From a virus: a stretch of 24,173 nucleotides of DNA. The stretch spans positions 1 through 24,173 of the IMG/VR virus record IMGVR_UViG_3300042900_000804. The stretch is one strand, 5' to 3'. The notes beneath the pieces were generated by a model. The model saw nothing but the letters and a program-made list of their open reading frames with translations, did no database searches and was not told the DNA's origin. Both the position numbers and the translations under genes were made by a program. Positions 1 to 18,633 of the stretch are shown piece by piece. Every line of letters starts with the position of its first letter. Position 1 is the stretch's first letter.

Positions 1-147
1 CTTCCCTCCATATTTTCCTCCATTCTTCCCTCCATTCTTCCCTCCATATTTCCCGCCATTCTTCCCACCATTCTTCCCCCCATTCTTCCCACCATTCTTC
101 CCCCCGTACTTCCCCCCGTACTTCCCACCATACTTCCCACCAATCTT
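1..147. repeat. 12-bp tandem repeat array (TTCCCNCCATNC-like units)
   Basis: About twelve head-to-tail copies of a 12-base unit with consensus close to TTCCCNCCATTC cover the left edge of the window and continue beyond it. The unit length is a multiple of three, so copies can be gained or lost without disturbing the coded FPPx repeat. The copies have drifted at a few fixed positions only. Confidence 0.85.
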
Positions 148-154
148 TAAATAA
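2..154 (+). CDS. C-terminal end of a protein with FPP(F/Y) repeats (partial, 5' end outside window)
   Basis: The reading frame beginning at base 2 stays open to TAA at 152-154 and codes twelve consecutive four-residue units of the type Phe-Pro-Pro-Phe or Phe-Pro-Pro-Tyr, ending in FPPIFK. Between units the first Pro codon varies only in its third base (CCT, CCA, CCC, CCG), and the main non-silent change swaps Phe for Tyr, so the aromatic-Pro-Pro pattern is kept. That favours this frame, although all six frames are free of stops across the repeat. The following fibre-type gene starts 12 bases after this stop, which fits a structural or adhesion protein of the same operon, but its function cannot be named from the tail alone. 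The reverse strand reads as a GGK(Y/N) repeat but has no usual start codon. Confidence 0.55.
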   Translation, partial: FPPYFPPFFPPFFPPYFPPFFPPFFPPFFPPFFPPYFPPYFPPYFPPIFK

Positions 155-165
155 AGAGTTATTCA

Positions 166-429
166 ATGGCAAATACTATTAAATTAAAAAGATCAGCAAC
201 ATCTTCTAGCAGCCCAGCGTCGCTAGAGCATGGTGAATTGGCAATAAATTACACAGATGAAAAATTATTCTATAAAAACGCGTCTAATTTAATAAAAGAA
301 TTTTCCTTAGACCAAAGTTCAGGAATAAGTGCTGGTGGAAATATAAATGGGGGAACTCCAATCGATGTTTTATTAGAAGCTGAAGTTACTAATAATATAA
401 TAATCTTATATGATGGCGGGGAAATCTAA
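166..429 (+). CDS. Small fibre-type structural protein
   Basis: This 87-residue protein begins MANTIKLKRSA and has, near residues 20-35, the pattern LEHGELAINYTDEKLFYK. That is a version of the N-terminal module of many phage tail-fibre and tropism-type proteins, where 'LGELAINTxDGKLF' follows a short beta-strand. It lacks the long repetitive shaft that normally follows, so it may be a free-standing attachment or adaptor domain. The start has a weak purine stretch (AAAGAG) 7 bases upstream. Its stop codon TAA overlaps the ATG of the large fibre gene by one base, so the two are translationally coupled and probably act together. No catalytic motif is visible. The family assignment is from pattern recognition only. 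Confidence 0.6.
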   Translation: MANTIKLKRSATSSSSPASLEHGELAINYTDEKLFYKNASNLIKEFSLDQSSGISAGGNINGGTPIDVLLEAEVTNNIIILYDGGEI

Positions 430-2693
430 TGGCAGCAACTATTCAATTTAAAAGAGGCTTAGCAGCATCTTGGACGTCAGTAAACCCCACTCTTGCTGTT
501 GGTGAATGTGGTTTTGAAAGTGATACTAGAAAATTAAAAATTGGAACTGGATCAACTGCTTGGACTTCTCTTCCGTATTTTGTTGGAGACGTATCAGCAG
601 CTAATCTAAATGATCTTGCAGATGTAACTATTACATCGGCCACGGACGGCGACTTCCTTCGCTGGAACGGGACAGCGTGGATAAATGATGCCGTCAATCT
701 CTCAACAGACACTGTCGGAAATTACATGGTTGACCTTACCCAAGGAACTGGAGTAACCATTACCCATACTCCAGGAGAAGGCTCTAACGCAACAATTGCA
801 ATTGGCCAAAGCGTTGCAACTTCTGCAACTCCAACATTTGCAGGACTTACCATTAATGGTGCAAGTATTATTATCGAAGGTGCAACAGCAAACGAGTTTG
901 AAACAACATTAGCTATTACAGATCCAACCGAAGACAGAACTGTCACCTTTCCTGACGCTACTGGCACAGTTGCTTTAGTCTCAGATCTCACAACTCATGC
1001 AAACCTAACAGAAGCTCATGGCGCAACTGGAGCAGTTGTTGGGACTACAAACACTCAAACTCTTACTAACAAGACACTTACCTCTCCAGTCATAAACACT
1101 CCAACTGGAATTGTTAAAGCAGATGTTGGCCTTGGAAACGTTGACAACACTTCGGACGCAAATAAACCGGTATCTACAGCAGGACAAACTGCTCTTGATC
1201 TAAAGGCAAACTTAGCAAATCCCACATTTACGGGAACAGTCGCTGCAGCAAATCTTACACTTTCTGGCGATCTAACAGTCAATGGCACAACTACAACAAT
1301 TAACTCTACAACACTTACTGTTGATGATAAAAATATTGAACTTGGGGCAGTAACTTCTCCTACAGACTCAACGGCTGATGGTGGTGGAATTACGCTCAAA
1401 GGAGCTACTGATAAGACCTTTAACTGGATAGATTCAACTGACGCATGGACTTCATCTGAAGATCTGAACCTTCTAGCTGGTAAAGTTTATGAGATTGATG
1501 GGACATCAGTACTTAGTTCAACAACTCTTGGATCTGGCGTTACCAGTTCGTCCCTTACTTCACTAGGAACTATAGCTGCCGGTGTTTGGAACGGAACATT
1601 GATTGGGTCAACATATGGTGGAACCGGCGTAAATAATGGTTCAAGTACAATAACTCTTGGTGGCAATCTTACAACATCTGGAGCATTCGCTACCACCCTT
1701 ACGGTAGGAGCTAATACAAGCGTAACCCTTCCTTCAACAGGAACTCTAGCAACTCTTGATGGAACAGAAACATTCACTAACAAAACACTAACTAGCCCGA
1801 CACTCACTACCCCAACTCTTGGGGTAGCTTCTGCTACAACAATCAATAAAGTTACCTTGACTGCTCCGACAACTGGATCGACACTAACTATTGCTGACGG
1901 TAAGACGCTCACAGTCAGCAACACCCTTACATTTACTGGCACTGATTCTTCATCAGTTGCATTTGGCACGGGGGGTACAGTTGCCTATACTGATGTTGCA
2001 ACCCTTTCATCCCTCACGAGTATTGGCACTATTGGCACCGGCACATGGCAAGGGACTTTGATTGGTGCAACTTACGGTGGCACTGGTGTAAACAATGGTT
2101 CTAATACAATTACACTTGGTGGAAACTTTACAACATCTGGAGCATTTACCACTACCCTTACAGCCACAGCAACAACTACTTTAACTCTACCAACTACTGG
2201 GACTCTAGCGACCCTTGACGGCACCGAAACTTTTACCAATAAAACTTTTACAAGTCCAGTAACTAATACTCCTACCCTAACACTTTCTACCTCATCTTCT
2301 ACTACAGATGCTAGACTATCTTGGGATTCTACCAATAAAAAATTGCAAGTAGGTAATGGAACAATATCTTTGGACTTTGCATCATCCAATGTCATCACTA
2401 ATGCCCAGGCCGCTAGCTATACTCTTGTGTTAGCTGACAAAGATAAGCTTGTAGAGATAAGCAATGGATCAGCCAATACACTGACTGTTCCATTAAACTC
2501 TTCTGTAGCTTTCCCAATTGGAACTCAAATTACAATCCTACAAACAGGGGCGGGAGCAACAACGATAACGGCAACAGGCGGCGTGACAGTCAATGCTACC
2601 CCTGGTCTGATTTTAAGAGCACAGTGGTCTTCAGTTACTTTAATAAAAAGAGCTGAAAATACTTGGGTGGCACTTGGAGACTTGAGAGCCTAG
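429..2693 (+). CDS. Tail fibre protein with Mtd-like N-terminal domain
   Basis: This 754-residue protein is a probable tail fibre or receptor-binding shaft. Residues 1-50 (MAATIQFKRGLAASW, then VGECGFESDTRKLKIG) match the N-terminal domain seen in major-tropism-determinant-like and other fibre proteins. The middle is Thr/Ser/Gly-rich and low in charge, with repeated beta-rich modules such as TLTNKTLTSP (near residues 210, 448 and 602) and YGGTGVNNGS (twice), typical of trimeric fibre shafts. Residues about 655-754 form a distinct terminal domain containing LVLADKDKLVEISNG, a pattern I associate with fibres of aquatic phages. The ATG overlaps the previous stop, with a GGGG Shine-Dalgarno about 7 bases upstream. 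The stop TAG shares three bases with the stop codon of the convergent oxygenase gene. The sequence has slightly more GC-rich codons than its neighbours. Confidence 0.85.
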   Translation: MAATIQFKRGLAASWTSVNPTLAVGECGFESDTRKLKIGTGSTAWTSLPYFVGDVSAANLNDLADVTITSATDGDFLRWNGTAWINDAVNLSTDTVGNYMVDLTQGTGVTITHTPGEGSNATIAIGQSVATSATPTFAGLTINGASIIIEGATANEFETTLAITDPTEDRTVTFPDATGTVALVSDLTTHANLTEAHGATGAVVGTTNTQTLTNKTLTSPVINTPTGIVKADVGLGNVDNTSDANKPVSTAGQTALDLKANLANPTFTGTVAAANLTLSGDLTVNGTTTTINSTTLTVDDKNIELGAVTSPTDSTADGGGITLKGATDKTFNWIDSTDAWTSSEDLNLLAGKVYEIDGTSVLSSTTLGSGVTSSSLTSLGTIAAGVWNGTLIGSTYGGTGVNNGSSTITLGGNLTTSGAFATTLTVGANTSVTLPSTGTLATLDGTETFTNKTLTSPTLTTPTLGVASATTINKVTLTAPTTGSTLTIADGKTLTVSNTLTFTGTDSSSVAFGTGGTVAYTDVATLSSLTSIGTIGTGTWQGTLIGATYGGTGVNNGSNTITLGGNFTTSGAFTTTLTATATTTLTLPTTGTLATLDGTETFTNKTFTSPVTNTPTLTLSTSSSTTDARLSWDSTNKKLQVGNGTISLDFASSNVITNAQAASYTLVLADKDKLVEISNGSANTLTVPLNSSVAFPIGTQITILQTGAGATTITATGGVTVNATPGLILRAQWSSVTLIKRAENTWVALGDLRA
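1548..2279 (+). repeat. Internal duplication in the tail fibre gene (1548-1820 and 2007-2279)
   Basis: Two 273-base segments, 459 bases apart, align without gaps and code closely similar 91-residue modules running from SSLTS through YGGTGVNNGS and LDGTETFTNKT to TPTL. Most of the DNA differences are at third codon positions, so the protein is conserved while the DNA has drifted. This points to an old in-frame duplication rather than a recent one. Confidence 0.85.
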
Positions 2694-3232
2694 TCTTTCT
2701 TAACGCACCAAAAGTTAGTAGAGCACCAACGGTATCCGCTCTTTATTTCTCTGACTTGATGTGGAAATCCATCTTTAGCTGGGAAGCAAATAAACATTCC
2801 AGGCTCTGGTTTAATAAGTAAATCTTGTTCAGGGAAGTAAATCTCTCCACCTTCATAATCATCATTATAGTAGAGTACTGAACTAAGGTCTCTTGATGGG
2901 TATCCGGCACCAGTCTTGAGTCCAACACTTTCATTTTGAGCAGATCCATGATCCAAGTGAACTGGCATTGAATCCCCAGTTTTCATCTCGACTATACTAG
3001 TTACGCCTTCATCATAAACTTTGCAATTAAAAGAAGTTTCAATAATTCCCTTTAATGTATTATGATATTTTTCCAAAAGATTAGGTAGGGTAGGACTACC
3101 ATTCCCGGCATAAACACCAAATGGCGAATATCCAGATTCATCAATCATAACTGGTGTATTTTTTAAATACAGTATAATTTGTTCTAAATCTTTTCTATCT
3201 ATAATATTTTTAGTAATATGAATCTTATCCAA
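2690..3232 (-). CDS. 2OG-Fe(II) oxygenase, prolyl-hydroxylase-like (TTG start)
   Basis: Probable 2-oxoglutarate- and Fe(II)-dependent hydroxylase of 180 residues. With the TTG start, the iron ligands are H92-x-D94 (in VHLDHG) and H158 (in FPHQV), with R168 ten residues later placed to bind the 2-oxoglutarate carboxylate. YYNDDYEGGEIYFP between them is the family's core-strand signature. I chose TTG at 3232 because AAAGGAG lies six bases upstream; the longer ATG start at 3349 would overlap the preceding gene by 125 bases and lacks such a site. The TTG start overlaps the stop of the upstream oxygenase by 8 bases, so the pair is coupled. It is the last gene of a three-oxygenase minus-strand operon. 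The substrate is unknown. Confidence 0.85.
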   Translation of the reverse strand: MDKIHITKNIIDRKDLEQIILYLKNTPVMIDESGYSPFGVYAGNGSPTLPNLLEKYHNTLKGIIETSFNCKVYDEGVTSIVEMKTGDSMPVHLDHGSAQNESVGLKTGAGYPSRDLSSVLYYNDDYEGGEIYFPEQDLLIKPEPGMFICFPAKDGFPHQVREIKSGYRWCSTNFWCVKKD

Positions 3233-4040
3233 AATTAGCTCCTTTAGAAAATATTGGCTTGGAATATAGGTCATAGTCGATCTTGTCTCGATAGGCCCAA
3301 TGTCTAGTGAAGGATCTTTCTCCAGGTAAAAATCCTCCCTTGACTGCATGAACTATTCTGGATAAGTCTATTAGGATAAAATCCCCTTCACTCCAATTCC
3401 ACCAAAAGGCATCTTGTTCTTTTTCTACAATTTCTGCAAAAACCCATTCAGTAATTTGTTTATATAGTTCAATGTCCAAACTAGAAGGTTCACTTAAGCC
3501 AACTCTGCAAAGTACCTCTCCGTTATAATATGGATGTAGTCTTAGTATTTTTCTACCATTATTCAAATGAGAAATAACACAAGGTCTTTCTATGTTTAAA
3601 CTATCTGCGTCTTTTATAAAACAATTGTCTAAAAATGTTTTCCATTGATCATTTAACCTATAATACAAAGCAGAAGAGTCAATGAAACCTGTTGCGCCAA
3701 ATTCATTTGAGCAAATAAATTTATCCATTCTCCATGAAGCTGCTACTTGAGGCCTAGATCTCTCTACATGCTCTAAGTGCCAGGGTATAAACAGGCTATC
3801 AATAGAACGTTCTTGGTCTTTAGTCATTTCAAAAGTTACCATATGGTCTTCTATGTGAGAATGATCAACGTAACCCCAGTCTAGCTTTTGACCGAACAAA
3901 GACATAAAGTCTAATTGTTCTGTGTCATTTAAATTTATTTTAGGAAATATAAGTAAACCATTTTTTAAAAATAAATTTATATAATTATCTATATTAAATT
4001 CAATATCTTTTAAAGAAGAATTTTTTATTATATTATTCAT
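3225..4040 (-). CDS. TauD/TfdA-like 2OG-Fe(II) oxygenase with HxE motif
   Basis: This 271-residue protein resembles the TauD/TfdA and clavaminate-synthase-like branch of 2OG oxygenases, unlike its neighbours, which are prolyl-hydroxylase-like. Residues 86-91 (PWHLEH) give H88-x-E90; the distal ligand is H231 in LSRIVHAVKGG, followed by the GERSFTRHW block with R242 and R246, one of which should bind 2-oxoglutarate. Glu in place of the usual Asp in the metal triad is known in clavaminate synthase and AsnO-type enzymes, so activity is likely retained. The ATG sits one base after the stop of the preceding oxygenase, with TTAAGG four bases upstream. Middle gene of the minus-strand operon. Substrates in this branch are usually small molecules or free amino acids; the actual one here is unknown. 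Confidence 0.75.
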   Translation of the reverse strand: MNNIIKNSSLKDIEFNIDNYINLFLKNGLLIFPKINLNDTEQLDFMSLFGQKLDWGYVDHSHIEDHMVTFEMTKDQERSIDSLFIPWHLEHVERSRPQVAASWRMDKFICSNEFGATGFIDSSALYYRLNDQWKTFLDNCFIKDADSLNIERPCVISHLNNGRKILRLHPYYNGEVLCRVGLSEPSSLDIELYKQITEWVFAEIVEKEQDAFWWNWSEGDFILIDLSRIVHAVKGGFLPGERSFTRHWAYRDKIDYDLYSKPIFSKGANFG

Positions 4041-4041
4041 T

Positions 4042-4662
4042 TTACCTTAATTCTGTAATCGTATAAAAAGATGGAGTTGTATATCTTTCTCCAGAAATAA
4101 CTGGCTTAACTCCATGTAGATAGTTTATATCTCCCGGATGGGCAACAGCCAGCCCAGGTTGTGGCGTAATGACCAAGTCGTGATCAGGATAATACAGTTC
4201 CCCACCTTGAAAATCATCATTGTAATAAAATAAAGAATTTATATCATATGTTGGAAATGGATTAGGTCTTCCATCATTAGTTTGTTTGTCTGCATGAGGT
4301 CTCTGCTCCATCCCAGGACGCCATTTAATTATTACTGGAGGTCTTGTGGATAGTTCAACATTAAAAGATTGTTCTAAAAATTGTTTCATTTTTTGAATGT
4401 ATCTATCAACAATATTGTAAACTTCAATATTAATTTTCTTCAGAATATCCCAGCTACACTGTCTATCGGCCCAGTAAGATGCATCATAGATGCATGTCCC
4501 ATCATCAGCATATTGGTTCTCTCCAGCATCCATCCATTCGTTAATGGTGGGCAAAAATTTTTGAATTACTTTAAGATCTTCTAATTCAATAAAATTTTTA
4601 TAAATTTTTATATTGTCAGTAGAACCGCCAAAATAACCTGGTTCAACGAGTGACTTTTCCAT
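4042..4662 (-). CDS. 2OG-Fe(II) oxygenase, prolyl-hydroxylase-like
   Basis: 206-residue 2OG/Fe(II) oxygenase, first gene of the minus-strand operon. Ligands are H123-x-D125 (RPHADKQ) and H183 (YLHGVKP), with R193 in SGERYTTP as the 2-oxoglutarate-binding Arg. FYYNDDFQGGELYYPD at about residues 145-160 is the same core signature as in the gene at 2690-3232, so the two are related although they differ elsewhere. PPVIIKWRPG before the HxD is typical of the prolyl-hydroxylase-like group. AGAGG lies a few bases upstream of the ATG, and an extended -10 promoter lies about 55 bases upstream. It is divergent from the oxygenase gene at 4766. A host or virion target is possible; none is shown by the sequence. 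Confidence 0.85.
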   Translation of the reverse strand: MEKSLVEPGYFGGSTDNIKIYKNFIELEDLKVIQKFLPTINEWMDAGENQYADDGTCIYDASYWADRQCSWDILKKINIEVYNIVDRYIQKMKQFLEQSFNVELSTRPPVIIKWRPGMEQRPHADKQTNDGRPNPFPTYDINSLFYYNDDFQGGELYYPDHDLVITPQPGLAVAHPGDINYLHGVKPVISGERYTTPSFYTITELR

Positions 4663-4755: not shown

Positions 4756-4768
4756 GGAGATTAAATTG
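4756..4768 (+). promoter_or_regulatory. Ribosome binding site selecting a TTG start
   Basis: GGAG at 4756-4759 precedes TTG at 4766-4768 by six bases. No in-frame ATG lies near, so the oxygenase gene at 4766 very likely starts with TTG. Confidence 0.7.
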
Positions 4769-5440
4769 GAAATTTACAACATAGAAGAACCAAAATTAGG
4801 AATAATCCTCTATAGAAATGCTATATCAGAAGAAGTAAATATCCCACAAAGACTAGAGACTACACTAAAAGATAGTAATCACGAATACTTCAAATGGAAT
4901 GAAGCTATGGTTGGATATAATGAAAAAATGCCAGATTATAGAGATTGCTATGATTTAAAAATAGGACCAAAACATTGGCCTCATCTTCCAGAAGAATTAT
5001 CAGAAATTAAAAATGTTTACGATGACTACAATTCTGTTTTAGCTACATGTTTAGAAGATTATGAAAAAAGATATAATTTTAAAATGGAATTTATGGAAGC
5101 AATTAACTTTATAAAATACGGAGAAGGTCAACATTTCCAAGTTCATACGGATTCAGGTTTTTCATACTTTTGCACACTTTCTTCAGTCGGATTCTTCAAT
5201 GACGATTATGAAGGAGGAGAGCTTTGGTTCCCTTATCTAAACCTTAAATTCAAAGCTCAAAAGGGAGATGTTATATTTTTCCCTTCAACGTACATCTATG
5301 CACATGGATCAATGGAAGTAACTAAAGGTACAAAGTATAGTGCAGTAACAATGTATAACTACAATGAGATTGGGCAAGCGAATACTGCATCTTCAGGGGT
5401 TCCAATTTCACCTCTGCCAACTTTAACAAAAGCCAATTAA
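4766..5440 (+). CDS. 2OG-Fe(II) oxygenase, prolyl-hydroxylase-like, Lys at the 2OG-binding site
   Basis: 224-residue 2OG/Fe(II) oxygenase starting with TTG. Metal ligands are H127-x-D129 (FQVHTDSG) and H180 (YAHGSMEV). FFNDDYEGGELWFP at about 143-156 and QKGDVIFFPSTY are strong family signatures. Where the other oxygenases here have Arg ten residues after the distal His, this one has K190 (KGTKYSAV); Lys at that site is normal in collagen-type prolyl 4-hydroxylases, so it should still bind 2-oxoglutarate. It opens the rightward operon, and the GPx-like gene follows after one base. The region after residue 205 is a short flexible tail. The substrate is unknown. Confidence 0.85.
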   Translation: MEIYNIEEPKLGIILYRNAISEEVNIPQRLETTLKDSNHEYFKWNEAMVGYNEKMPDYRDCYDLKIGPKHWPHLPEELSEIKNVYDDYNSVLATCLEDYEKRYNFKMEFMEAINFIKYGEGQHFQVHTDSGFSYFCTLSSVGFFNDDYEGGELWFPYLNLKFKAQKGDVIFFPSTYIYAHGSMEVTKGTKYSAVTMYNYNEIGQANTASSGVPISPLPTLTKAN

Positions 5441-5441
5441 A

Positions 5442-6122
5442 ATGAATGATAACTCACAAGAATCAATTGTAGAATATGTGGATAATAACATATATGATTT
5501 TCCACTTAAGTCAATAGACGGACAAGACGGCGTCTTGAAAAGCCTAAAGGGAAAAGTTTCTATGTTATTTAACGTAACTGGAGAATGCGCAAACTCTCCT
5601 CAGTACACGATTATCCAAGACATATACAATGAATACAAAGATTTTGGCTTTGAAGTATTAGCACTACCCAGTACAGATTTTTGCCAAGATGCCTATGGTC
5701 AATTTGCAGACTCTAACTCCAGCGCAGAAAATATGAGAGATCATATGAAGGAATTATATAAGACAGATTTACCATTTTCTGAGATGGTAAATATCCTAGA
5801 TGCAAGTAAGGACAAAGAAGATTATAAAAGAGTTAGAGAAGAGTACGATAAGACTGATGTAGATTACTATGAGCCAAAGGGTGAAATGCATCCTCTTTTC
5901 AAAGAGTTTCAGCAAAATAGCGATTTAATTCATGGAAATTTTGAAAAATTCATTATATCTAGGGATGGCTCTAAGTATATTAGATTTTGCAACTCAGACC
6001 TATTGAGTATGGGTTATGAAAGTGGAGAAAGAAATATTTCTCCTGAACAGGCTTTACAAAACATTAAAAAAGCAATAGAAGAATTTATCAAAGAAGAATA
6101 TGACGAAGATAACATTAACTAA
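5442..6122 (+). CDS. Glutathione-peroxidase-like thioredoxin-fold protein, divergent
   Basis: 226-residue protein with the thioredoxin-fold layout of glutathione peroxidases (GPx). LKGKVSMLFNVTGECANSPQ aligns with the block that in active GPx reads NVASKCGFTPQY, and C49 falls at or next to the peroxidatic position. EYKDFGFEVLALPSTDF aligns with the next block, but the usual FPCNQF is replaced by LPSTDF, so the conserved Cys, Asn and Gln are lost. Near the end GNFEKFIISRDG matches the WNFEKFLVDRDG block with Trp replaced by Gly. There is an acidic insertion of about 40 residues around 115-155. Peroxidase activity is doubtful; a redox-partner or structural role is possible. It follows an oxygenase gene with a one-base gap and no clear Shine-Dalgarno, so translation is probably coupled. 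Confidence 0.6.
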   Translation: MNDNSQESIVEYVDNNIYDFPLKSIDGQDGVLKSLKGKVSMLFNVTGECANSPQYTIIQDIYNEYKDFGFEVLALPSTDFCQDAYGQFADSNSSAENMRDHMKELYKTDLPFSEMVNILDASKDKEDYKRVREEYDKTDVDYYEPKGEMHPLFKEFQQNSDLIHGNFEKFIISRDGSKYIRFCNSDLLSMGYESGERNISPEQALQNIKKAIEEFIKEEYDEDNIN

Positions 6123-6801
6123 AACTCATCAAAATCCACCCAAGATACAACAGTCTAGACTTAAACGAGACTGGATGGATGAGACGTACAATAAGCACGC
6201 GTACAAGTGCCTACCGATGTCGGCAGCTAATGTAAATGGCTGGGAATTGGTCTTGCAGCAAGATGTAGTAGTCCAATGGGATGGCGGGAATACTCCACCA
6301 AGAGTTTTAGAAGGCGAATTCTTTAACGATAGACCTGTTGTAATTCCCTCTATAATTGGCATTATGTCTTTTGCCACAGGATGGGCTATTAATACCGAAG
6401 AAGGATATGATACCTGGATAACTGGATCTCCAAACTATTTTGTAGATGGAGCAGCGCCCTTATCTGCTACTATACCAAGTTCTTGGTGGCCAGATGAATT
6501 TAATATGAACTGGAAAATTACGAAAATTGGAGAACCGGTCAGATTTGAAGCTGGGATGCCGTTCATGTTTTTTAATATCTATAAGAATGATCTTCTAGAA
6601 AATACCGAGGTATTAGTTGAAAATCTTTGGGATAAACCAGAACTAATGGCCCAACGCCAATCTTATGGCGATGCAAAAATGAAGAAACTTCATGATCAAC
6701 CCTGGACTTGGATGAATGGCATTAGAACTGGCCTAGATGAAAATGGTAACCAAATTGGGCCAAAACATGATGGGCTATTAAAGCTTAGTGAACCAAATTA
6801 A
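6100..6801 (+). CDS. DUF6065-like protein of unknown function
   Basis: 233-residue soluble protein. The stretch RDWMDETYNKHAYKCLP followed by MSAANVNGWEL and VQWDGGN resembles the conserved core of the uncharacterised DUF6065 family, which carries similar 'RWMD...CLPLNIANAHGWE' patterns; this is recalled, not searched. It is Trp-rich (for instance SSWWPDEFNMNWK) and contains no metal-binding or nucleotide-binding motif I recognise. The ATG at 6100 overlaps the GPx-like gene by 23 bases and has AAAGAAG just upstream; a later start at Met26 would remove part of the conserved core. Gene order ties it to the oxygenase block, which suggests but does not prove a joint role. Confidence 0.5.
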   Translation: MTKITLTKTHQNPPKIQQSRLKRDWMDETYNKHAYKCLPMSAANVNGWELVLQQDVVVQWDGGNTPPRVLEGEFFNDRPVVIPSIIGIMSFATGWAINTEEGYDTWITGSPNYFVDGAAPLSATIPSSWWPDEFNMNWKITKIGEPVRFEAGMPFMFFNIYKNDLLENTEVLVENLWDKPELMAQRQSYGDAKMKKLHDQPWTWMNGIRTGLDENGNQIGPKHDGLLKLSEPN

Positions 6802-8541: not shown

Positions 8542-8560
8542 TTTACCTATTATAGGTGAA
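8542..8560 (+). other. Short hairpin between gene blocks
   Basis: TTTACCTA and TAGGTGAA pair over 8 bases (one G-T pair) around a three-base loop. There is no T-run after it, so it is not a standard intrinsic terminator; it might be a weak terminator or a processing site between the two gene blocks. Confidence 0.3.
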
Positions 8561-8588
8561 GCAGTTAGTTTATTGCACCGGTATTTTG

Positions 8589-8597
8589 TGGTACAAT
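8589..8597 (+). promoter_or_regulatory. Candidate extended -10 promoter giving a leaderless transcript
   Basis: TG-G-TACAAT is an extended -10 with five of six matches. The last T is six bases before ATG at 8604, so transcription would begin at or next to that codon. No Shine-Dalgarno precedes the ATG, which agrees with a leaderless mRNA. Confidence 0.45.
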
Positions 8598-8603
8598 TAT
8601 GAT

Positions 8604-8921
8604 ATGAATAAAATTTTTAGTGGTCAAAAATTTGTTGGCAAATGGGATATTACGGTTGACACTCCGTTTGGTAAAGAACAATACTCTTTAAACATAGACA
8701 GTGTTAACGATGCGTTATCTGGTTCAATTTCTCACGATAAGGGTAGCGCAGCTCTAACCGATGCTTCTTTTTTGGATGGAACATTTAAGTGTTTGTTAAA
8801 TGTAGAATTTCCAATAAAAGCAACTGTCAACCTACATGCTAATATCGTTGATGATAATAAAATGTTTGGAACACTACTGATTGATCAATACCTAGAAACA
8901 TTGTTTGTTGGAGTTCGATAA
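8604..8921 (+). CDS. Small beta-barrel-like protein (lipocalin-type pattern)
   Basis: 105-residue protein starting at ATG 8604; an upstream GTG frame would run through the promoter. The N-terminal FVGKWDITVDTPFGKEQYSL, then alternating strands with ALSGSISHDKG and a closing FGTLLIDQYLETLFVGVR, resemble small antiparallel beta-barrel proteins in which 'GxWxxxxxTPxG' opens the barrel and a 'G-R' ends it. Such proteins occur in bacterial genomes, but I cannot name the family with confidence. No signal peptide or catalytic residue is visible. It is the first gene of a tightly packed operon with a GPx-like protein and four oxygenases, so a small-molecule-binding helper role is possible but only inferred. 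Confidence 0.5.
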   Translation: MNKIFSGQKFVGKWDITVDTPFGKEQYSLNIDSVNDALSGSISHDKGSAALTDASFLDGTFKCLLNVEFPIKATVNLHANIVDDNKMFGTLLIDQYLETLFVGVR

Positions 8922-9535
8922 TGTCAATGTATAATTTTAGTGTTTCTTCAATACTGGGAAAAGAAGACTACCTTTCTGACTTCAAGGGTAAAACAACTTT
9001 AGTCGTCAATATTGCAAGTAAGTTTGGATATGAGCCCCAATGCTCCAAGCTTTGGTCATACGCAAGAACTTGTAGACAATTCTGGCAGCTGCAGTCTGTT
9101 CATGATCAGTTTAAGGATAGAGGATTTTCTGTTTTAGCATTTCCTTGTAATCAGTTTGGCTCTATGGATCCGGGAAGCAATGAAGAGATATCTCAGTTTA
9201 TTAAAATAAATTATCCTTTTGTAACTTTTCCTATTTTTGAAAAAGTTGAAGTAAATGGAAAAAATGAACATGAAATATTTTCTTTTCTTAAAGGTTATGA
9301 GAAAAGAGCTTATTCTGACTTTACTGCAGACGGCACAGAAGAAGCTAAAAAGGGGCAGAATCTAGCAGGCCAAGCAATGGCAAGAATTTCTCATAACTAT
9401 GAAAAGTTCTTGGTAAGTAGAGATGGAATTATGGTATCTAGATTCAACTGGCAAGATATGCCATTAGACGAAGTACCTAGAATACAAGGCGCAGGCTGGA
9501 CAATTAGAGAAGCAATAGATGAGGTGTTGGGATGA
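8921..9535 (+). CDS. Glutathione-peroxidase-like protein lacking the peroxidatic Cys
   Basis: 204-residue member of the GPx family. Blocks in order: NIASKFGYEPQ (residues 30-40), DRGFSVLAFPCNQFG (66-80), FPIFEKVEVNGKNEHEIF, and HNYEKFLVSRDG near the end, all with clear GPx counterparts. The catalytic Cys/Sec of ASK-C-G is Phe (F35), and the active-site Trp before N-(F/Y)-EKF is His. An insertion of about 13 residues after EPQ carries C41 and C51; the FPCNQF Cys is kept (C76). Classical peroxidase chemistry therefore looks lost, unless C41 substitutes. The ATG overlaps the previous stop by one base with GGAG seven bases upstream, and it overlaps the following oxygenase by four. Confidence 0.75.
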   Translation: MSMYNFSVSSILGKEDYLSDFKGKTTLVVNIASKFGYEPQCSKLWSYARTCRQFWQLQSVHDQFKDRGFSVLAFPCNQFGSMDPGSNEEISQFIKINYPFVTFPIFEKVEVNGKNEHEIFSFLKGYEKRAYSDFTADGTEEAKKGQNLAGQAMARISHNYEKFLVSRDGIMVSRFNWQDMPLDEVPRIQGAGWTIREAIDEVLG

Positions 9536-10635
9536 ATCAGGAAAATAACAATAGAGAAAATCCATATTTAGGAATGTCTCCGTATCCAGTATCTCCAGAG
9601 TTTACTGAGGAAACAATAGTTGAGATTGGTAACTTAGAAGCAGAAGAGTTAGCTCCTGGAATAGTTGTCATAAAAAATGCTTTTAAGATAGAGCAAGGTA
9701 AAATACTTGACCATATAGATTCCCAGGCAGAAGAGGCACATAGGACCAGATGGCAGTTTATAACAGCTGAGGATGGCGTTGAGTATGGTATAAACGAAGA
9801 TGGCTTCAGGTATAGGCTAGAAGATGTTCCCGCAGCTCCTGTTCGATTATTACAGCCTGTTAATTCAGAAACCCCTGAGAATGTAAAAGAATTTTTTATT
9901 TATTTAGAAGAACAAATATATAAATCATTAATAAAATATATAGATTTCTATCCACTTATGATAGGTAGTATTTGGTGGAAAAATAGAGGCCATATACTTA
10001 GATATGGAGATGGTGGCATATTAGGCTGTCATGCAGACAACGACACTAATTACAAAGTATCTCAAGGGGTTAGATACATGCCTAAGGGTATGGTTGCTTC
10101 TCGACAAACATGTGGAGCTTTAGTATACCTAAATGATCAGGTAGAGACTGAAGAGGAATTAGATGGGAAAAACTTTACTGGTGGAAATTTAAACTTTGTT
10201 CACCTAGGCATATCCTATGCTCCCAAAAGAGGGGATATTATATTCTTTCCAACCAACTACGTAGCAGCACATGAAGTGTCTAAAATGGGCAAGGGCGTCA
10301 GATATGCCTACCTAACTTTTTTTGGACAAGGAGATAGTGATGTTGAATCTAATATAGTTATCGTGGAGCCAGAAGAAAGTTACGATTGGTGTCCAGCTGT
10401 TTGGTTTAACAATATCTATGATGACTATGAAAGATATTGTAAAACTCCACATTCTAGATATTCTAATTTAGAAAAATATGGGGTTTCACCAGGTTGGAAT
10501 CCAGTTTATCAAGGAAGAAACGTAGCACAATACAATAAGAGTCATGAAGCAATTGTTGTTGAAAAAAAAGAAACTAAAGAAGTAGATCAAGAATTATCAG
10601 AAGGACCGTGTGGAACAGAACCTAGGTTAATATAA
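9532..10635 (+). CDS. 2OG-Fe(II) oxygenase, tandem copy 1 of 4
   Basis: 367-residue 2OG/Fe(II) oxygenase and the longest of the four tandem paralogues. Ligands are H167-x-D169 (GCHADND) and H247 (AAHEVSKM), with R257 (KGVRYAY) as probable 2-oxoglutarate-binding residue. Signatures shared with the next three genes include IWWKNRGHILRY before the HxD, YLND about 30 residues after it, FTGGNLNF, and KRGDIIFFPTNY. It has an extra 40-residue N-terminus and an extra C-terminal region of about 90 residues, polar and charged at the end (EKKETKEVDQ). ATGA overlaps the previous stop, with GAGG seven bases upstream. The size of this group exceeds simple prolyl-hydroxylase domains, suggesting an additional substrate-recognition part; the substrate is unknown. 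Confidence 0.85.
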   Translation: MNQENNNRENPYLGMSPYPVSPEFTEETIVEIGNLEAEELAPGIVVIKNAFKIEQGKILDHIDSQAEEAHRTRWQFITAEDGVEYGINEDGFRYRLEDVPAAPVRLLQPVNSETPENVKEFFIYLEEQIYKSLIKYIDFYPLMIGSIWWKNRGHILRYGDGGILGCHADNDTNYKVSQGVRYMPKGMVASRQTCGALVYLNDQVETEEELDGKNFTGGNLNFVHLGISYAPKRGDIIFFPTNYVAAHEVSKMGKGVRYAYLTFFGQGDSDVESNIVIVEPEESYDWCPAVWFNNIYDDYERYCKTPHSRYSNLEKYGVSPGWNPVYQGRNVAQYNKSHEAIVVEKKETKEVDQELSEGPCGTEPRLI

Positions 10636-11561
10636 TGTTTGAAATAAAAGAAGAAAATATAGAAATACATGATATGGGAATTGTTCTTTTTAAGAATGTA
10701 TTACCAATGGAGGCTCATGATTATATATTGGATTTTGCAAAATCGATAAGATTACAAGCGCTAAAAGATGATTACACCTACGTTAATGATGAATTAGGAA
10801 ATCCTTTATATGCCATAAATAGAAGTGGACATAGATATTCTTTAACCGATGTAAATATTGCATGTAATCATATTATGAATTTTCTACATGATGATTTAGA
10901 TGAAAAGTATTTTGCTTTTTTTAAAGCATGCGAAGACGTACTATATAAATGCATGATAAGGTATGTAGAGTTTTTCCCGATGATGCTACCATGTTTATGG
11001 TGGAGAACTCAAGGGCATATAGTAGCTTATAGTAAGGGTAGTAGATTTGGCAAACATTGTGACAATGATGTAAATTACCAGCCTGGGGCAGAGCCCGATC
11101 AACAATTGGCTATAAGAAATGTTTTAGGCGGTCTTATATATTTTAATAATTCAGTATCATCTATTGATGAAATGAAAAATAAAAATGATTACGTGGGTGG
11201 AGAAATATTTTTTCCTTATGCAAATTTTACATATTCACCAAAAGCAGGAGATGTAATAATGTTTCCCTCTAATTATTTAGGAACTCATAAAGTTTTTGAA
11301 TGCAAAGAAGGGGAAAGATATGCCTATGTTGGTTATTTTTCCCAGGGATCAAGCGATCCAAGTAGGGGCGTAAACATTAGGCAGCCATCAGACATTATGG
11401 ATAGCGGACAAGTTTGGATGCCAGATATAGTTGATGATTATTTACAAGCAATTAATGAGAAGTATGGGGATACAGACCCAGAAATTTTATCTCTTCTAAC
11501 AGAATCTGCCAAGAGACCATTAACTAGTAATAACACGAATGAAAAAATAGGTAGAGCATGA
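10635..11561 (+). CDS. 2OG-Fe(II) oxygenase, tandem copy 2 of 4
   Basis: 308-residue paralogue of its neighbours. Ligands H141-x-D143 (FGKHCDND) and H218 (GTHKVFE), then R228 in GERYAYVGYFSQG. LWWRTQGHIVAY, YFNNSV, YVGGEIFFP and KAGDVIMFPSNY match the corresponding positions of copies 1, 3 and 4. An N-terminal region (residues 10-70) has the group's pattern 'GIVLFKNVL ... YAINRSGHRYSL', which in copy 1 reads 'GIVVIKNAF ... YGINEDGFRYRL'. The start overlaps the previous stop by one base and the stop overlaps the next start, so the four copies should be made together. All catalytic residues are present, so activity is expected; the target is not evident. Confidence 0.85.
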   Translation: MFEIKEENIEIHDMGIVLFKNVLPMEAHDYILDFAKSIRLQALKDDYTYVNDELGNPLYAINRSGHRYSLTDVNIACNHIMNFLHDDLDEKYFAFFKACEDVLYKCMIRYVEFFPMMLPCLWWRTQGHIVAYSKGSRFGKHCDNDVNYQPGAEPDQQLAIRNVLGGLIYFNNSVSSIDEMKNKNDYVGGEIFFPYANFTYSPKAGDVIMFPSNYLGTHKVFECKEGERYAYVGYFSQGSSDPSRGVNIRQPSDIMDSGQVWMPDIVDDYLQAINEKYGDTDPEILSLLTESAKRPLTSNNTNEKIGRA

Positions 11562-12439
11562 TATTTAATAAAGTAGAACCAAAACACTTGGGTGGTGGAG
11601 TAGTTGTTTTTGAAAATTGTTTAGATTTAGATTGGAAAAATGTAATCAATAAAGCAAGCGAACTTATTGATGAAGAGTGGAATGAAATGTACTCCCTTGC
11701 AATCGATCCGGAAACCAACGAAGAAATTTACATAAATAAAAGTGGTTATTTTTTTGGGAAAGATAGCATTGACATAATGCCCAAAAGAGCTAGTGCCATT
11801 CACTACAAGGATGATGAAGATCTTAAGAGTATTTTATCTTTTATAGAATCTTCAAAAGATAAATGTTTGCTACAATATTTTGAGTTATTTCCATTGGCAT
11901 ACAAGTGTGTATGGTGGAAAGTCAAGGGGCATATTCTTCAGTATCCAAAAGATGTTTATCTTGGCTCTCACTCGGATATTAGTGGCGATTATATATATGG
12001 AGTTCTAGAGCCACAAGACCAATTGGCACTAAGAAATGTAGTGACTAGCTTAGTTTACTTTAACGATTCAGTTGACAAGCAAGAGGAACTAGACGGAAAT
12101 AATTATTTGGGCGGTCATCATTATTTTAACTATTTAGATATAGACTATTCTCCTAAGAAGGGGGATATATTATTTTTTCCCTCCAATTACATGGCGGCAC
12201 ATGAAGTTAAACCAGTCAAGGAAGGGTTTAGGTACAGCTACCTTGGATGGTATAGTCAAGGAACTCCCAACCCTGCAGTGCACGAATATGTTGCAGACCC
12301 GTTAAAGGACCCGGAGTTATCTCAGAAAGCGACTAATGTGTATATGCCAACGTTAAGAGATGACCTAAAGAATCATTTATTAGAATCTGGATACAAAGAA
12401 GATTCTCCTCAATTTTATATTACAAAATCAAATTATTAA
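11558..12439 (+). CDS. 2OG-Fe(II) oxygenase, tandem copy 3 of 4
   Basis: 293-residue paralogue with H138-x-D140 (LGSHSDIS), H215 (AAHEVKP) and R225 (EGFRYSYLGWYSQG). VWWKVKGHILQY, YFNDSV and KKGDILFFPSNY follow the group pattern, and the region of residues 10-70 (GGVVVFENCL ... YINKSGYFFG) is again shared. It differs at one otherwise stable point: the core strand after YLGG reads HHYFNY, where related copies have EIFFPY or NLNFVH. Extra His residues near the active site might alter substrate fit. The ATG overlaps the stop of copy 2 by four bases; nine bases separate it from copy 4. All metal and 2-oxoglutarate ligands appear intact. Confidence 0.85.
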   Translation: MIFNKVEPKHLGGGVVVFENCLDLDWKNVINKASELIDEEWNEMYSLAIDPETNEEIYINKSGYFFGKDSIDIMPKRASAIHYKDDEDLKSILSFIESSKDKCLLQYFELFPLAYKCVWWKVKGHILQYPKDVYLGSHSDISGDYIYGVLEPQDQLALRNVVTSLVYFNDSVDKQEELDGNNYLGGHHYFNYLDIDYSPKKGDILFFPSNYMAAHEVKPVKEGFRYSYLGWYSQGTPNPAVHEYVADPLKDPELSQKATNVYMPTLRDDLKNHLLESGYKEDSPQFYITKSNY

Positions 12440-12447
12440 GGAACCTT

Positions 12448-13254
12448 ATGAAATCTAAACATGTTGGAATGGGCGTAGTCATATGCGAAGACGTAATTGA
12501 CGTAGATCAGGACTTTCTTTTTGAATACATTAATTGGATTCGCAAAAATCAAGAAGACACTTTTACCTATACGGAAGAAGATGGCATAGAGTACGCTATC
12601 AATAAAACTGGTTTTAAATTTAAACTAGAAGACGTTAAGCAAGCACCGCAAAGATTCTTGGACACAAAAGGAAAACAGTTAAATTCTCCTGTTCCTCAAA
12701 AGTATATTGACTTTATAGATTCACTAGAGAACGCAGTCTATGATGCCCTTGTCGAATACTGCTGCTACTTCCCGGACGCAGGGACAACATCTTGGTGGAG
12801 ACCAACTGGTCATATAGCTGGGTATGAGAATGGTCAAAGAATAGGCCAGCATTGCGACGATCAAGTGCCTTACGAATGGGGAAAGCCAACAGGTAATCAA
12901 GTCTCGATGCATAACAGTTCAAGCATAAACTTGTATTTAAATGATTGCGTAGACTCAAAAGATCAAATAAATAGCTTTAATTATACTGGTGGAGAAATCC
13001 ATTTTCCAAATGTTCCATATGTTTGGAAGCCAAAGGCTGGCTCTGTGGCGATATATCCTTCTAGCTATATTGGTAGACATGAAGTTTATCCTGTAGATCT
13101 AGGTCAGCGTTATGCATTCTTAAGTATAGCTTGTTATGGGACTTCTTTTGACAGAGAAGAAGTAGTAGGGCAGGATAATGAACAGAAGCACTGGATGCCT
13201 AACTTAATAAAAGATGCGAATAATAGAGCTGGCAAAAAGAATTTTTTACTTTAA
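12448..13254 (+). CDS. 2OG-Fe(II) oxygenase, tandem copy 4 of 4
   Basis: 268-residue paralogue, the shortest of the four. Ligands H135-x-D137 (IGQHCDDQ) and H211 (GRHEVYPV), then R221 in GQRYAFLSIACYG. SWWRPTGHIAGY, YLNDCV, YTGGEIHFP and KAGSVAIYPSSY place it in the same group; the Gly-Asp of KxGD is changed to Gly-Ser. The shared N-terminal region (GMGVVICEDVI ... YAINKTGFKFKL) is present. Unlike copies 1-3 it has its own Shine-Dalgarno (AAGGA six bases before ATG). Last gene of the oxygenase operon; a structural-type gene follows after 36 bases with no hairpin between, so read-through into the tail genes is possible. Confidence 0.85.
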   Translation: MKSKHVGMGVVICEDVIDVDQDFLFEYINWIRKNQEDTFTYTEEDGIEYAINKTGFKFKLEDVKQAPQRFLDTKGKQLNSPVPQKYIDFIDSLENAVYDALVEYCCYFPDAGTTSWWRPTGHIAGYENGQRIGQHCDDQVPYEWGKPTGNQVSMHNSSSINLYLNDCVDSKDQINSFNYTGGEIHFPNVPYVWKPKAGSVAIYPSSYIGRHEVYPVDLGQRYAFLSIACYGTSFDREEVVGQDNEQKHWMPNLIKDANNRAGKKNFLL

Positions 13255-17361: not shown

Positions 17362-18633
17362 ATGGCTCTACCAGGTGTAAAAACAGTAATTAAAGATCGC
17401 TTTTATAGCATCTCAAGACAGGATATTCCTGTCGGACCAAAAATTTGTCTCATTGCTCGCAGATCTACTGCTGACAATTTTGGCAATGTAAGGGACTTAG
17501 ACGTTGTTCAGGCAACAACGGAACAAGACGTCATAACTGCGTTTGGAGAAAATTCAGACGCACACAGAGGCTATTTCGAGCTTGTAGCAGGAGGTGCTGA
17601 AAGAGTTTTCATCGTACCACTTCCTAGCGATACAGCATGGAACTACACCACCGGTGCAGTTACCAGTGCGTCCTTTGGTGGAAGCGTTTTTGATGCTTGT
17701 TTCGAAGCAGCAGAAGCAGTTCAGCCAGACATCATCATACCTTGGGGTAGAGGTGGACACCCATATGACTACGATCAAGAGGGTGCTACTCCTAATGCTG
17801 GCACAACGGGACCAGCTTTTGGTTTTTATGCAGACAGTGCTGCAGGCGCAAATAGCCTTGTTGCCAAAGTTGGCGCAAAGGTAAAAGACATTGCAGAGAA
17901 TTCTTTTCCATGCTTTGCAGTTATGGGAATTAAGCCTTACATAGGTGGCGTATCAGAAATTATGACACCAGGTGAAGTATCAACTCACATTGGTAGCGCA
18001 GGACTAACCACTCTCGTTTCAAGAGACGATGCAACCTTTTCTGCTGGTTCAGCTAACGATGGCGTTAACAGATATGTAGTAGTTATAGCTTCAGAGCTTA
18101 AGCCAGTAAACTATGTAGCTGAATGGGGTTTCGCCAATGGTGCAACAACTTTTGCTGCTGCAATTAGCAGAATGGCTTCTTTTAGCTCACCAGTTAATAA
18201 GATAGCTTACAACGTTGCATCTATCAGATATAATCCAACTAGAACACAGCAAATAACAATGTCAGACAAGGGCGTTAACTTTATCGCTCTTAACTTTAAC
18301 AAAGTGCCAGTCTTCATTGAAGGTAGCACATTCGCTATGTCAACATCGGATTATACAAGAATTTCTACATATAGAATCATCTCAGAAGCAGCCACTTTAA
18401 TAAGACAAGTGTGCCAGAAGTTTATTGGTGAAGCATCAACCCTTCAGACAAGAAACTCTATGGAAACGGCTATCACTTCTGCACTAAGAGGGATGCAACA
18501 AATGGGTGCCTTGTTGGACAGTGACTTCAGCGTAAGTTACTTGCCAGCACAAAATAAGGCGTTTGTTGACCTCGTATTAACACCAGCATTTGAACTCAAG
18601 AACATTGAAGTTCAAGTATCTATAAGCATATAA
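17362..18633 (+). CDS. Contractile tail sheath protein
   Basis: 423-residue tail sheath. The N-terminus (ALPGVKTVIKDRFYSIS, then VQATTEQDVITAFG and GGAERVFIVPLP) and the middle FDACFEAAEAVQPDIIIPWG follow sheath organisation. The C-terminal domain is the clearest part: DYTRISTYRIISEAATLIRQ, MQQMGALLDSDFSVSYLP and FVDLVLTPAFELKNIEVQV match the conserved sheath C-terminus that makes the inter-subunit mesh. It is short for a sheath, so peripheral domains are probably missing. Codons are more GC-rich and ordered than in flanking genes, in line with high expression. The tail tube gene follows after 27 bases. Confidence 0.8.
   Translation: MALPGVKTVIKDRFYSISRQDIPVGPKICLIARRSTADNFGNVRDLDVVQATTEQDVITAFGENSDAHRGYFELVAGGAERVFIVPLPSDTAWNYTTGAVTSASFGGSVFDACFEAAEAVQPDIIIPWGRGGHPYDYDQEGATPNAGTTGPAFGFYADSAAGANSLVAKVGAKVKDIAENSFPCFAVMGIKPYIGGVSEIMTPGEVSTHIGSAGLTTLVSRDDATFSAGSANDGVNRYVVVIASELKPVNYVAEWGFANGATTFAAAISRMASFSSPVNKIAYNVASIRYNPTRTQQITMSDKGVNFIALNFNKVPVFIEGSTFAMSTSDYTRISTYRIISEAATLIRQVCQKFIGEASTLQTRNSMETAITSALRGMQQMGALLDSDFSVSYLPAQNKAFVDLVLTPAFELKNIEVQVSISI

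Follow-up and report, generated by a model that had tools for sequence, protein, structure and literature searches.

The virus record IMGVR_UViG_3300042900_000804 of IMG/VR, whose 24,173 bases constitute the stretch analyzed here (the window), holds part of a myovirus structural module and, within it, an island rich in 2-oxoglutarate (2OG) oxygenase genes. The plus-strand part of this island includes four tandem oxygenase paralogues, termed c1 to c4, which belong to the PF13640 (2OG-FeII_Oxy_3) family, are modeled with a prolyl-hydroxylase fold, and are accompanied on their 5' side by a gene for proline/aromatic tandem repeats. With a probability of roughly one half, we propose that these enzymes act on the virion fibers of the phage itself and hydroxylate their proline-rich repeats.

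An earlier note on this DNA described four tandem, translationally coupled oxygenase paralogues, and the four open reading frames (ORFs) lie exactly where it placed them (Table 1). All of them exceed the PF13640 gathering cut-off of 27 bits. They are true paralogues, which resemble one another much more than they resemble the remaining oxygenases of the window. Aligned with c2, the copies c1, c3, and c4 score 146-175 bits (E 1e-44 to 1e-53), with 33-37% identity over ~250-270 residues, well above chance similarity; the next one, at 4766-5440, reaches 39 bits over 70 residues. Of the four junctions that lie between the glutathione peroxidase gene and c4, three have overlapping stop and start codons, namely ATGA at glutathione peroxidase/c1, a one-base overlap at c1/c2 (TAATG), and ATGA at c2/c3, whereas c3 and c4 do not overlap and are separated by 8 bases (ggaacctt) after the c3 stop. 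The WWxxxGHI, HxD, and GGxxxF motifs listed in the same note are present in all four proteins, as is the distal His. Its N-terminal motif, Y-(A/G)-I-N, is complete in c1, c2, and c4, but c3 reads IYINKSGYF; only I/V-N-x-x-G is general, with N62 and G65 near-invariant. Residues specific to single copies include P150 and Y234 in c2 and H191 and W234 in c3. The iron ligands H141, D143, and H218 and the 2OG-binding R228 (c2 numbering) occur in 179/179 distinct proteins, and thus none of these proteins has lost a ligand or the Arg. In this family, the HxD...H triad holds Fe(II), 2OG is bound by the metal and the Arg, O2 is activated, and a C-H bond of the substrate is hydroxylated.

The AlphaFold2 model of c2 (predicted local distance difference test score, pLDDT, of 88.9 and predicted template modeling score, pTM, of 0.87) has its best structural matches in P3H1 (Z = 16.4), the viral collagen prolyl hydroxylase vCPH (16.2), PHD2 (16.2), and Bacillus P4H (16.1). 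These matches cover model residues 1 to ~250, and the alignments with P3H1, PHD2, and P4H begin at residue 1. The c1 model (pLDDT 84.1) aligns with PHD2 at Z = 15.9 over model residues 30-292. Because many Z scores are tied, no single prolyl-hydroxylase subfamily is preferred. The suggestion that residues 1-110 might form a separate, undescribed domain was rejected, since almost the entire chain of the c1 and c2 models superposes on prolyl hydroxylases (Z ~16); these residues are modeled as belonging to the prolyl-hydroxylase fold, at its N-terminal side. The enzymes c1-c4 are thus PF13640 members with a modeled prolyl-hydroxylase fold that includes the P4H-type N-terminal part, and nothing but the tails of c1 and the C-terminal ends is predicted to lie outside the common fold.

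Comparing c1-c4 with the P4H/PHD2 (EGLN) family, which includes the structures of PBCV-1 vCPH (5c5t), Bacillus P4H (5v7y), and P3H1 (8k0m), the likeness extends over nearly the whole protein (Z 15-16), with the N-terminal helices and hairpin as well as the HxD...H triad and a basic 2OG-binding residue. However, c1-c4 are only 14-22% identical to members of this family, carry Arg where collagen P4Hs have Lys, and occur as four tandem paralogues with C-terminal extensions and a substrate that is only predicted. Prolyl-hydroxylase-like folds are widespread among phage proteins, and an EGLN3-like fold has been reported for phage 2OG oxygenases (PMC12774648). Pelagiphages and cyanophages carry many 2OG oxygenases (PMC9599517, PMC9602691). 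Phage family PHROG 61 comprises 2OG-Fe(II) oxygenases of such phages. The catalytic regions of c1-c4 match phrog_61 with E values of 5.6e-8 to 8.6e-15, a significant but partial match over profile positions ~449-669 of 689; unlike in the PHROG 61 phages, the c1-c4 island adjoins a P/F-repeat gene. The PKHD-type hydroxylases (PiuC, YbiX) are also similar, PiuC being the sole PDB sequence match (E = 0.04) and NCBIfam similarity being weak, but the best score of c1-c4 against the PKHD equivalogs NF003973-NF003975 is 31.9 bits against a cut-off of 143, and they are therefore not members. Viral and bacterial collagen-like systems (PBCV-1, mimivirus, and Bacillus BclA with P4H) likewise combine a repeat-rich surface protein with a hydroxylase, and giant viruses are known to have hydroxylated collagen, as Bacillus is to have an enzyme that hydroxylates collagen peptides (PMC8968730). 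In contrast to those, the constant repeat here is P-Y/F-F-P rather than Gly-X-Y, the hosts are bacterial, each phage has many oxygenases, and hydroxyproline is only predicted.

Window bases 2-154 lie inside the repeat gene and read FPPYFPPFFPPFFPPYFPPFFPP...YFPPIFK followed by a stop codon. Proline-rich repeats directly 5' of the island were first seen in a 210 kb relative, and in each of the nine large contigs a (P-[YF]-F-P)n gene precedes the oxygenases of the island on the 5' side. In the two most divergent of these, G008 and G009, the repeat gene directly abuts an oxygenase gene and encodes a protein of 493-718 aa with fibronectin-III domains (Pfam fn3) and the repeat as its C-terminal tail. 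No close cultured relative of the long G009 repeat gene was found, and the search for cultured relatives of the G008 gene gave only three weak matches to Microbacterium minor-tail genes. The repeat DNA pattern is present in 45 of the 50 cassette contigs of at least 40 kb, on a single strand in each, which is the strand of the cassette. Four contigs without the pattern (G032, G037, G038, and G051) have the cassette near a contig end; the remaining one, G011, could be a true exception. Seven of the nine large contigs have collagen-like (GPT) runs of at least six Gly-X-Y triplets, mostly close to the island, and PF01391 is matched in 10/29 records, with 7/29 above the cut-off; within the window, no Gly-X-Y run of at least six triplets was found.

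We compared repeat genes across IMG/VR with control genes that share the fibronectin-III motif but lack the repeat; here and below, counts cover the matches listed, and phage lineages may confound them. A 2OG oxygenase lies no more than 3 kb downstream of 89 of the 106 P/F-repeat genes, compared with 0 of the 30 repeat-free fn3 genes. This difference persisted after dereplication at 85% (55/66 versus 0/27, p = 6e-15) and at 75% (16/21 versus 0/15, p = 3e-6), p-values that need caution because the definition of the repeat was set post hoc and phage lineage may confound; the 70% rule leaves too few clusters for a test. Dereplication was performed by masked clustering, as unmasked DNA joined 171 of 220 loci through the repeats themselves. 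Upstream oxygenases were found for 2/65 repeat genes and 2/44 controls, and the median number of same-strand 2OG oxygenases within 8 kb downstream of a repeat gene is six. Under a strict regular-expression (regex) definition of the repeat the counts were 86/103 versus 4/38, and at a composition cut of 0.75 they were 80/96 versus 9/40. Variant P/F repeats, such as FFSPPG, are present in all four exceptions to the regex result, and the composition cut was therefore moved to 0.6, a gap in the distribution that was chosen after the data had been seen.

It could be argued that the fiber module is an insertion hot spot in which repeats and oxygenases are independent passengers. Variability is a known trait of fiber regions, not all cassettes are close to tail sheath genes (L120, L124, and L127 are not), and the sharply different synonymous divergence (dS) of neighboring copies points to exchange between phages. 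We nevertheless regard this explanation as quite improbable, as repeat-free fn3 genes in similar places are in no case followed by an oxygenase, the association is one-sided and survives dereplication, and gene order is retained over wide divergence.

A role in host metabolism is the usual proposal for cyanophage 2OG oxygenases. On such an account, the genes would be auxiliary metabolic genes acting on host metabolites or on the host 2OG/nitrogen balance, and the fiber-gene neighborhood would be incidental. The glutathione peroxidases and TauD within the same island fit this account, which we consider unlikely: it predicts neither peptide-hydroxylase folds nor a directional link to one virion repeat type (89/106 repeat genes with a downstream oxygenase against 2/65 with an upstream one), and four divergent, order-conserved copies would be a costly means of consuming 2OG. 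The virion genes examined in two cultured cyanophages, S-SCSM1 and S-T4, contained no P/F repeats; in S-SCSM1 (L604 20681-29703), two runs of 2OG oxygenases flank tail-fiber genes, one of which, SSCSM1_245, has Arg-Gln-Pro-rich repeats.

In many repeat-bearing phages without c1-c4, several 2OG oxygenases come immediately after the repeat gene. One such locus, L387 609-11174, is a different, larger version of the island: after its repeat gene stand about nine 2OG oxygenases together with two DUF6065-like ORFs, an SDR-like ORF, and an FkbM-like ORF. DUF6065 itself lies no more than 3 kb downstream of 66/106 repeat genes and 2/30 controls and is one-sided like the oxygenases; a search for a close cultured relative of the DUF6065 gene found none. 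A carbamoyltransferase gene is located near the cassette in a divergent relative (L124 13185-14624). With TauD, DUF6065, and sometimes a carbamoyltransferase or SDR as partners, the oxygenases might instead serve to make or modify a small molecule, a glycan, or a lipid, perhaps on the virion or host surface. The L124 carbamoyltransferase, the L387 SDR-like and FkbM-like ORFs (judged from their translations), and the linkage of DUF6065 to repeat genes would all agree with such a role, but these partners vary among phages, whereas the repeat protein and P4H-like oxygenases recur, and the closest folds act on peptides; we therefore think this role rather improbable as well.

The fold and the linkage make the proline-rich repeat of the phage's own fiber the most likely substrate, and it is from these two lines that we infer peptidyl-proline hydroxylation by c1-c4. 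According to this proposal, c1-c4 would be peptidyl hydroxylases, most likely prolyl-type, of a large actinobacteriophage, and the island would act during virion production on fiber proteins with proline-rich tandem repeats. Its targets would be the (Pro-Tyr/Phe-Phe-Pro)n tails, whose gene immediately precedes the island on the 5' side, and possibly the neighboring collagen-like Gly-Pro-Thr fibers. Each enzyme would add hydroxyl groups using Fe(II), O2, and 2OG, and the four copies may differ in preferred residue or flanking sequence, although the match of four copies to a four-residue repeat may be a coincidence. The earlier note, which does not mention the repeat gene, suggested an enzyme for each substrate or successive hydroxylations, and either may hold. 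For the very hydrophobic repeat, hydroxylation could bring solubility, stiffness, or stickiness, or allow further modification, for instance as a handle for sugars. We found no literature linking phage oxygenases to proline/aromatic virion repeats, with most subscription journals and preprints outside the search.

Several points weigh against substrate assignment to the repeats. The c1-c4 set is not needed for the repeat as such, because P/F repeats occur in many phages without it; what constantly accompanies the repeat is DUF6065 together with oxygenases related to those at 4766 and 4042. In addition, c1 and c2 are sometimes absent or relocated, and for 17 repeat genes no oxygenase was detected within 3 kb. 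The four enzymes may instead, or additionally, serve the GPT fibers or another virion protein. Their chemistry is predicted from the fold, and a prolyl-hydroxylase fold leaves the substrate unfixed, as PKHD and free-amino-acid enzymes share it. Moreover, the association sample consists of the matches listed, in which lineages may confound.

More tentatively, hydroxylation of fiber repeats might extend to many aquatic phages, in which an oxygenase battery, each enzyme with its own repeat position, would hydroxylate fibronectin-III proteins ending in (Pro-Tyr/Phe-Phe-Pro)n. The product would be a hydroxyproline-rich, perhaps 3,4-dihydroxyphenylalanine (DOPA)-like, filament, and a main role of the phage 2OG oxygenases would be virion maturation, not host metabolism. 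If so, the filament would resemble mussel adhesive protein or the extensin of plants and be of a kind not known from bacteriophages. Phages would then hydroxylate structural repeats after translation, which is considered a rare chemistry in bacteria, and this would bear on host adhesion, virion stability, and biomaterials. The strong one-sided genomic link suggests for the many unexplained phage oxygenases a job that is testable by mass spectrometry.

Scans of IMG/VR proteins yielded many relatives of c1-c4. Most of the loci whose sequence around the cassette is complete retain the order c1-c2-c3-c4, and the variants comprise c1 absent or elsewhere, c2 absent, c2 inverted after c4, and an additional c4-like copy. 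Among L156-L160, L163, L241, L244, L245, and L248-L250, the inverted c2 characterizes one subgroup, and c1 or c2 is absent in others. The variable placement of c1 and c2 therefore marks the cassette as modular, while c3 and c4 remain together. The additional c4-like copy follows c1 in some contigs (L014 4485-5279; L304 and L305); that of L014 groups with a divergent c4 subclade and is possibly a fifth paralogue.

In a tree of 85 proteins, c1, c2, c3, and c4 each form one clade, with Shimodaira-Hasegawa-like approximate likelihood ratio test values of 97, 96, 100, and 100, and the grouping of all four against the outgroup has moderate support only (85). Separate sources for the individual copies are not indicated by this phylogeny with metagenomic homologues. 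Because each copy forms a single clade, the duplications are older than the whole sampled lineage. Pairwise ratios of nonsynonymous to synonymous divergence (dN/dS) among orthologues are 0.02-0.17 where dS is unsaturated, values that are indicative only, as dS is saturated in many pairs; they point to strong purifying selection on all four copies. The clades, the invariant ligands and Arg, and the low dN/dS bear out the view of the earlier note that duplication was followed by divergence with retained function. Between the window and L089, dS is 0.58 for c1 and 0.50 for c4 but 2.1 for c2 and saturated for c3 (L089 6188-8001 versus window 10635-12439); such sharply unequal dS between neighboring copies in some pairs suggests that single copies have been exchanged between phages. 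A cellular origin of the cassette found no support, as two scans of ~85,000 species genomes confirmed no relative. Among 50,697 phage records, no relative of c2 was found at E 1e-5, and c3 gave weak partial matches only.

Some of the relatives are contigs of 124-268 kb. The WhiB family, used as a marker of actinobacterial hosts (PMC6802176), is encoded in seven of the nine large related contigs, and an Rpf-type transglycosylase domain in five of the nine. Because of WhiB, the cassette lineage probably consists of large phages of actinobacteria; the host of the window's own phage would be of the same kind, judging from its relatives, and a freshwater habitat is probable from the general literature on WhiB-bearing phages. 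For a role in defense, PADLOC gave no more than a generic CRISPR-associated 2OG label.

The island is situated between the tail-fiber genes and the tail sheath gene (17362-18633), and further virion genes are present in the window. Its minus-strand part (2690-4662) comprises two PF13640 genes and one TauD gene, whereas the plus-strand part comprises one further PF13640 gene, two glutathione-peroxidase-like genes, the DUF6065 gene, and c1-c4.

Table 1 Features of the window in and around the oxygenase island
Feature	Position	Strand	Remarks
3' end of (P-[YF]-F-P)n repeat gene, cut by window start	2-154	+	Frame +2; ends FPPYFPPFFPPFFPP...YFPPIFK stop
Tail-fiber genes (87 aa and 754 aa), between repeat gene and island	166-2693	+	PHROG tail fiber / virion structural families
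Oxygenase	2690-3349	-	PF13640
Oxygenase, TauD	3225-4040	-	PF02668
Oxygenase	4042-4662	-	PF13640
2OG oxygenase nearest phage PHROG 61	4766-5440	+	PF13640; phrog_61 E 7.9e-25; in other phages, relatives come after the P/F-repeat gene
Glutathione-peroxidase-like protein	5442-6122	+	PF00255 E 4.3e-13
DUF6065 protein	6100-6801	+	PF19541 E 5e-45
Small protein without known function	8556-8921	+	5' partner of cassette, conserved in related loci
Glutathione peroxidase, overlaps c1	8921-9535	+	Conserved 5' partner; kept beside c1 in most related loci
c1, 367 aa, extra N- and C-terminal tails, most conserved copy	9532-10635	+	PF13640 E 2.3e-9, 38.5 bits
c2, 308 aa, c1 family	10635-11561	+	PF13640 E 9e-7, 30.2 bits
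c3, 293 aa, c1 family	11558-12439	+	PF13640 E 6.4e-11, 43.5 bits
c4, 268 aa, c1 family	12448-13254	+	PF13640 E 3.2e-8, 34.9 bits

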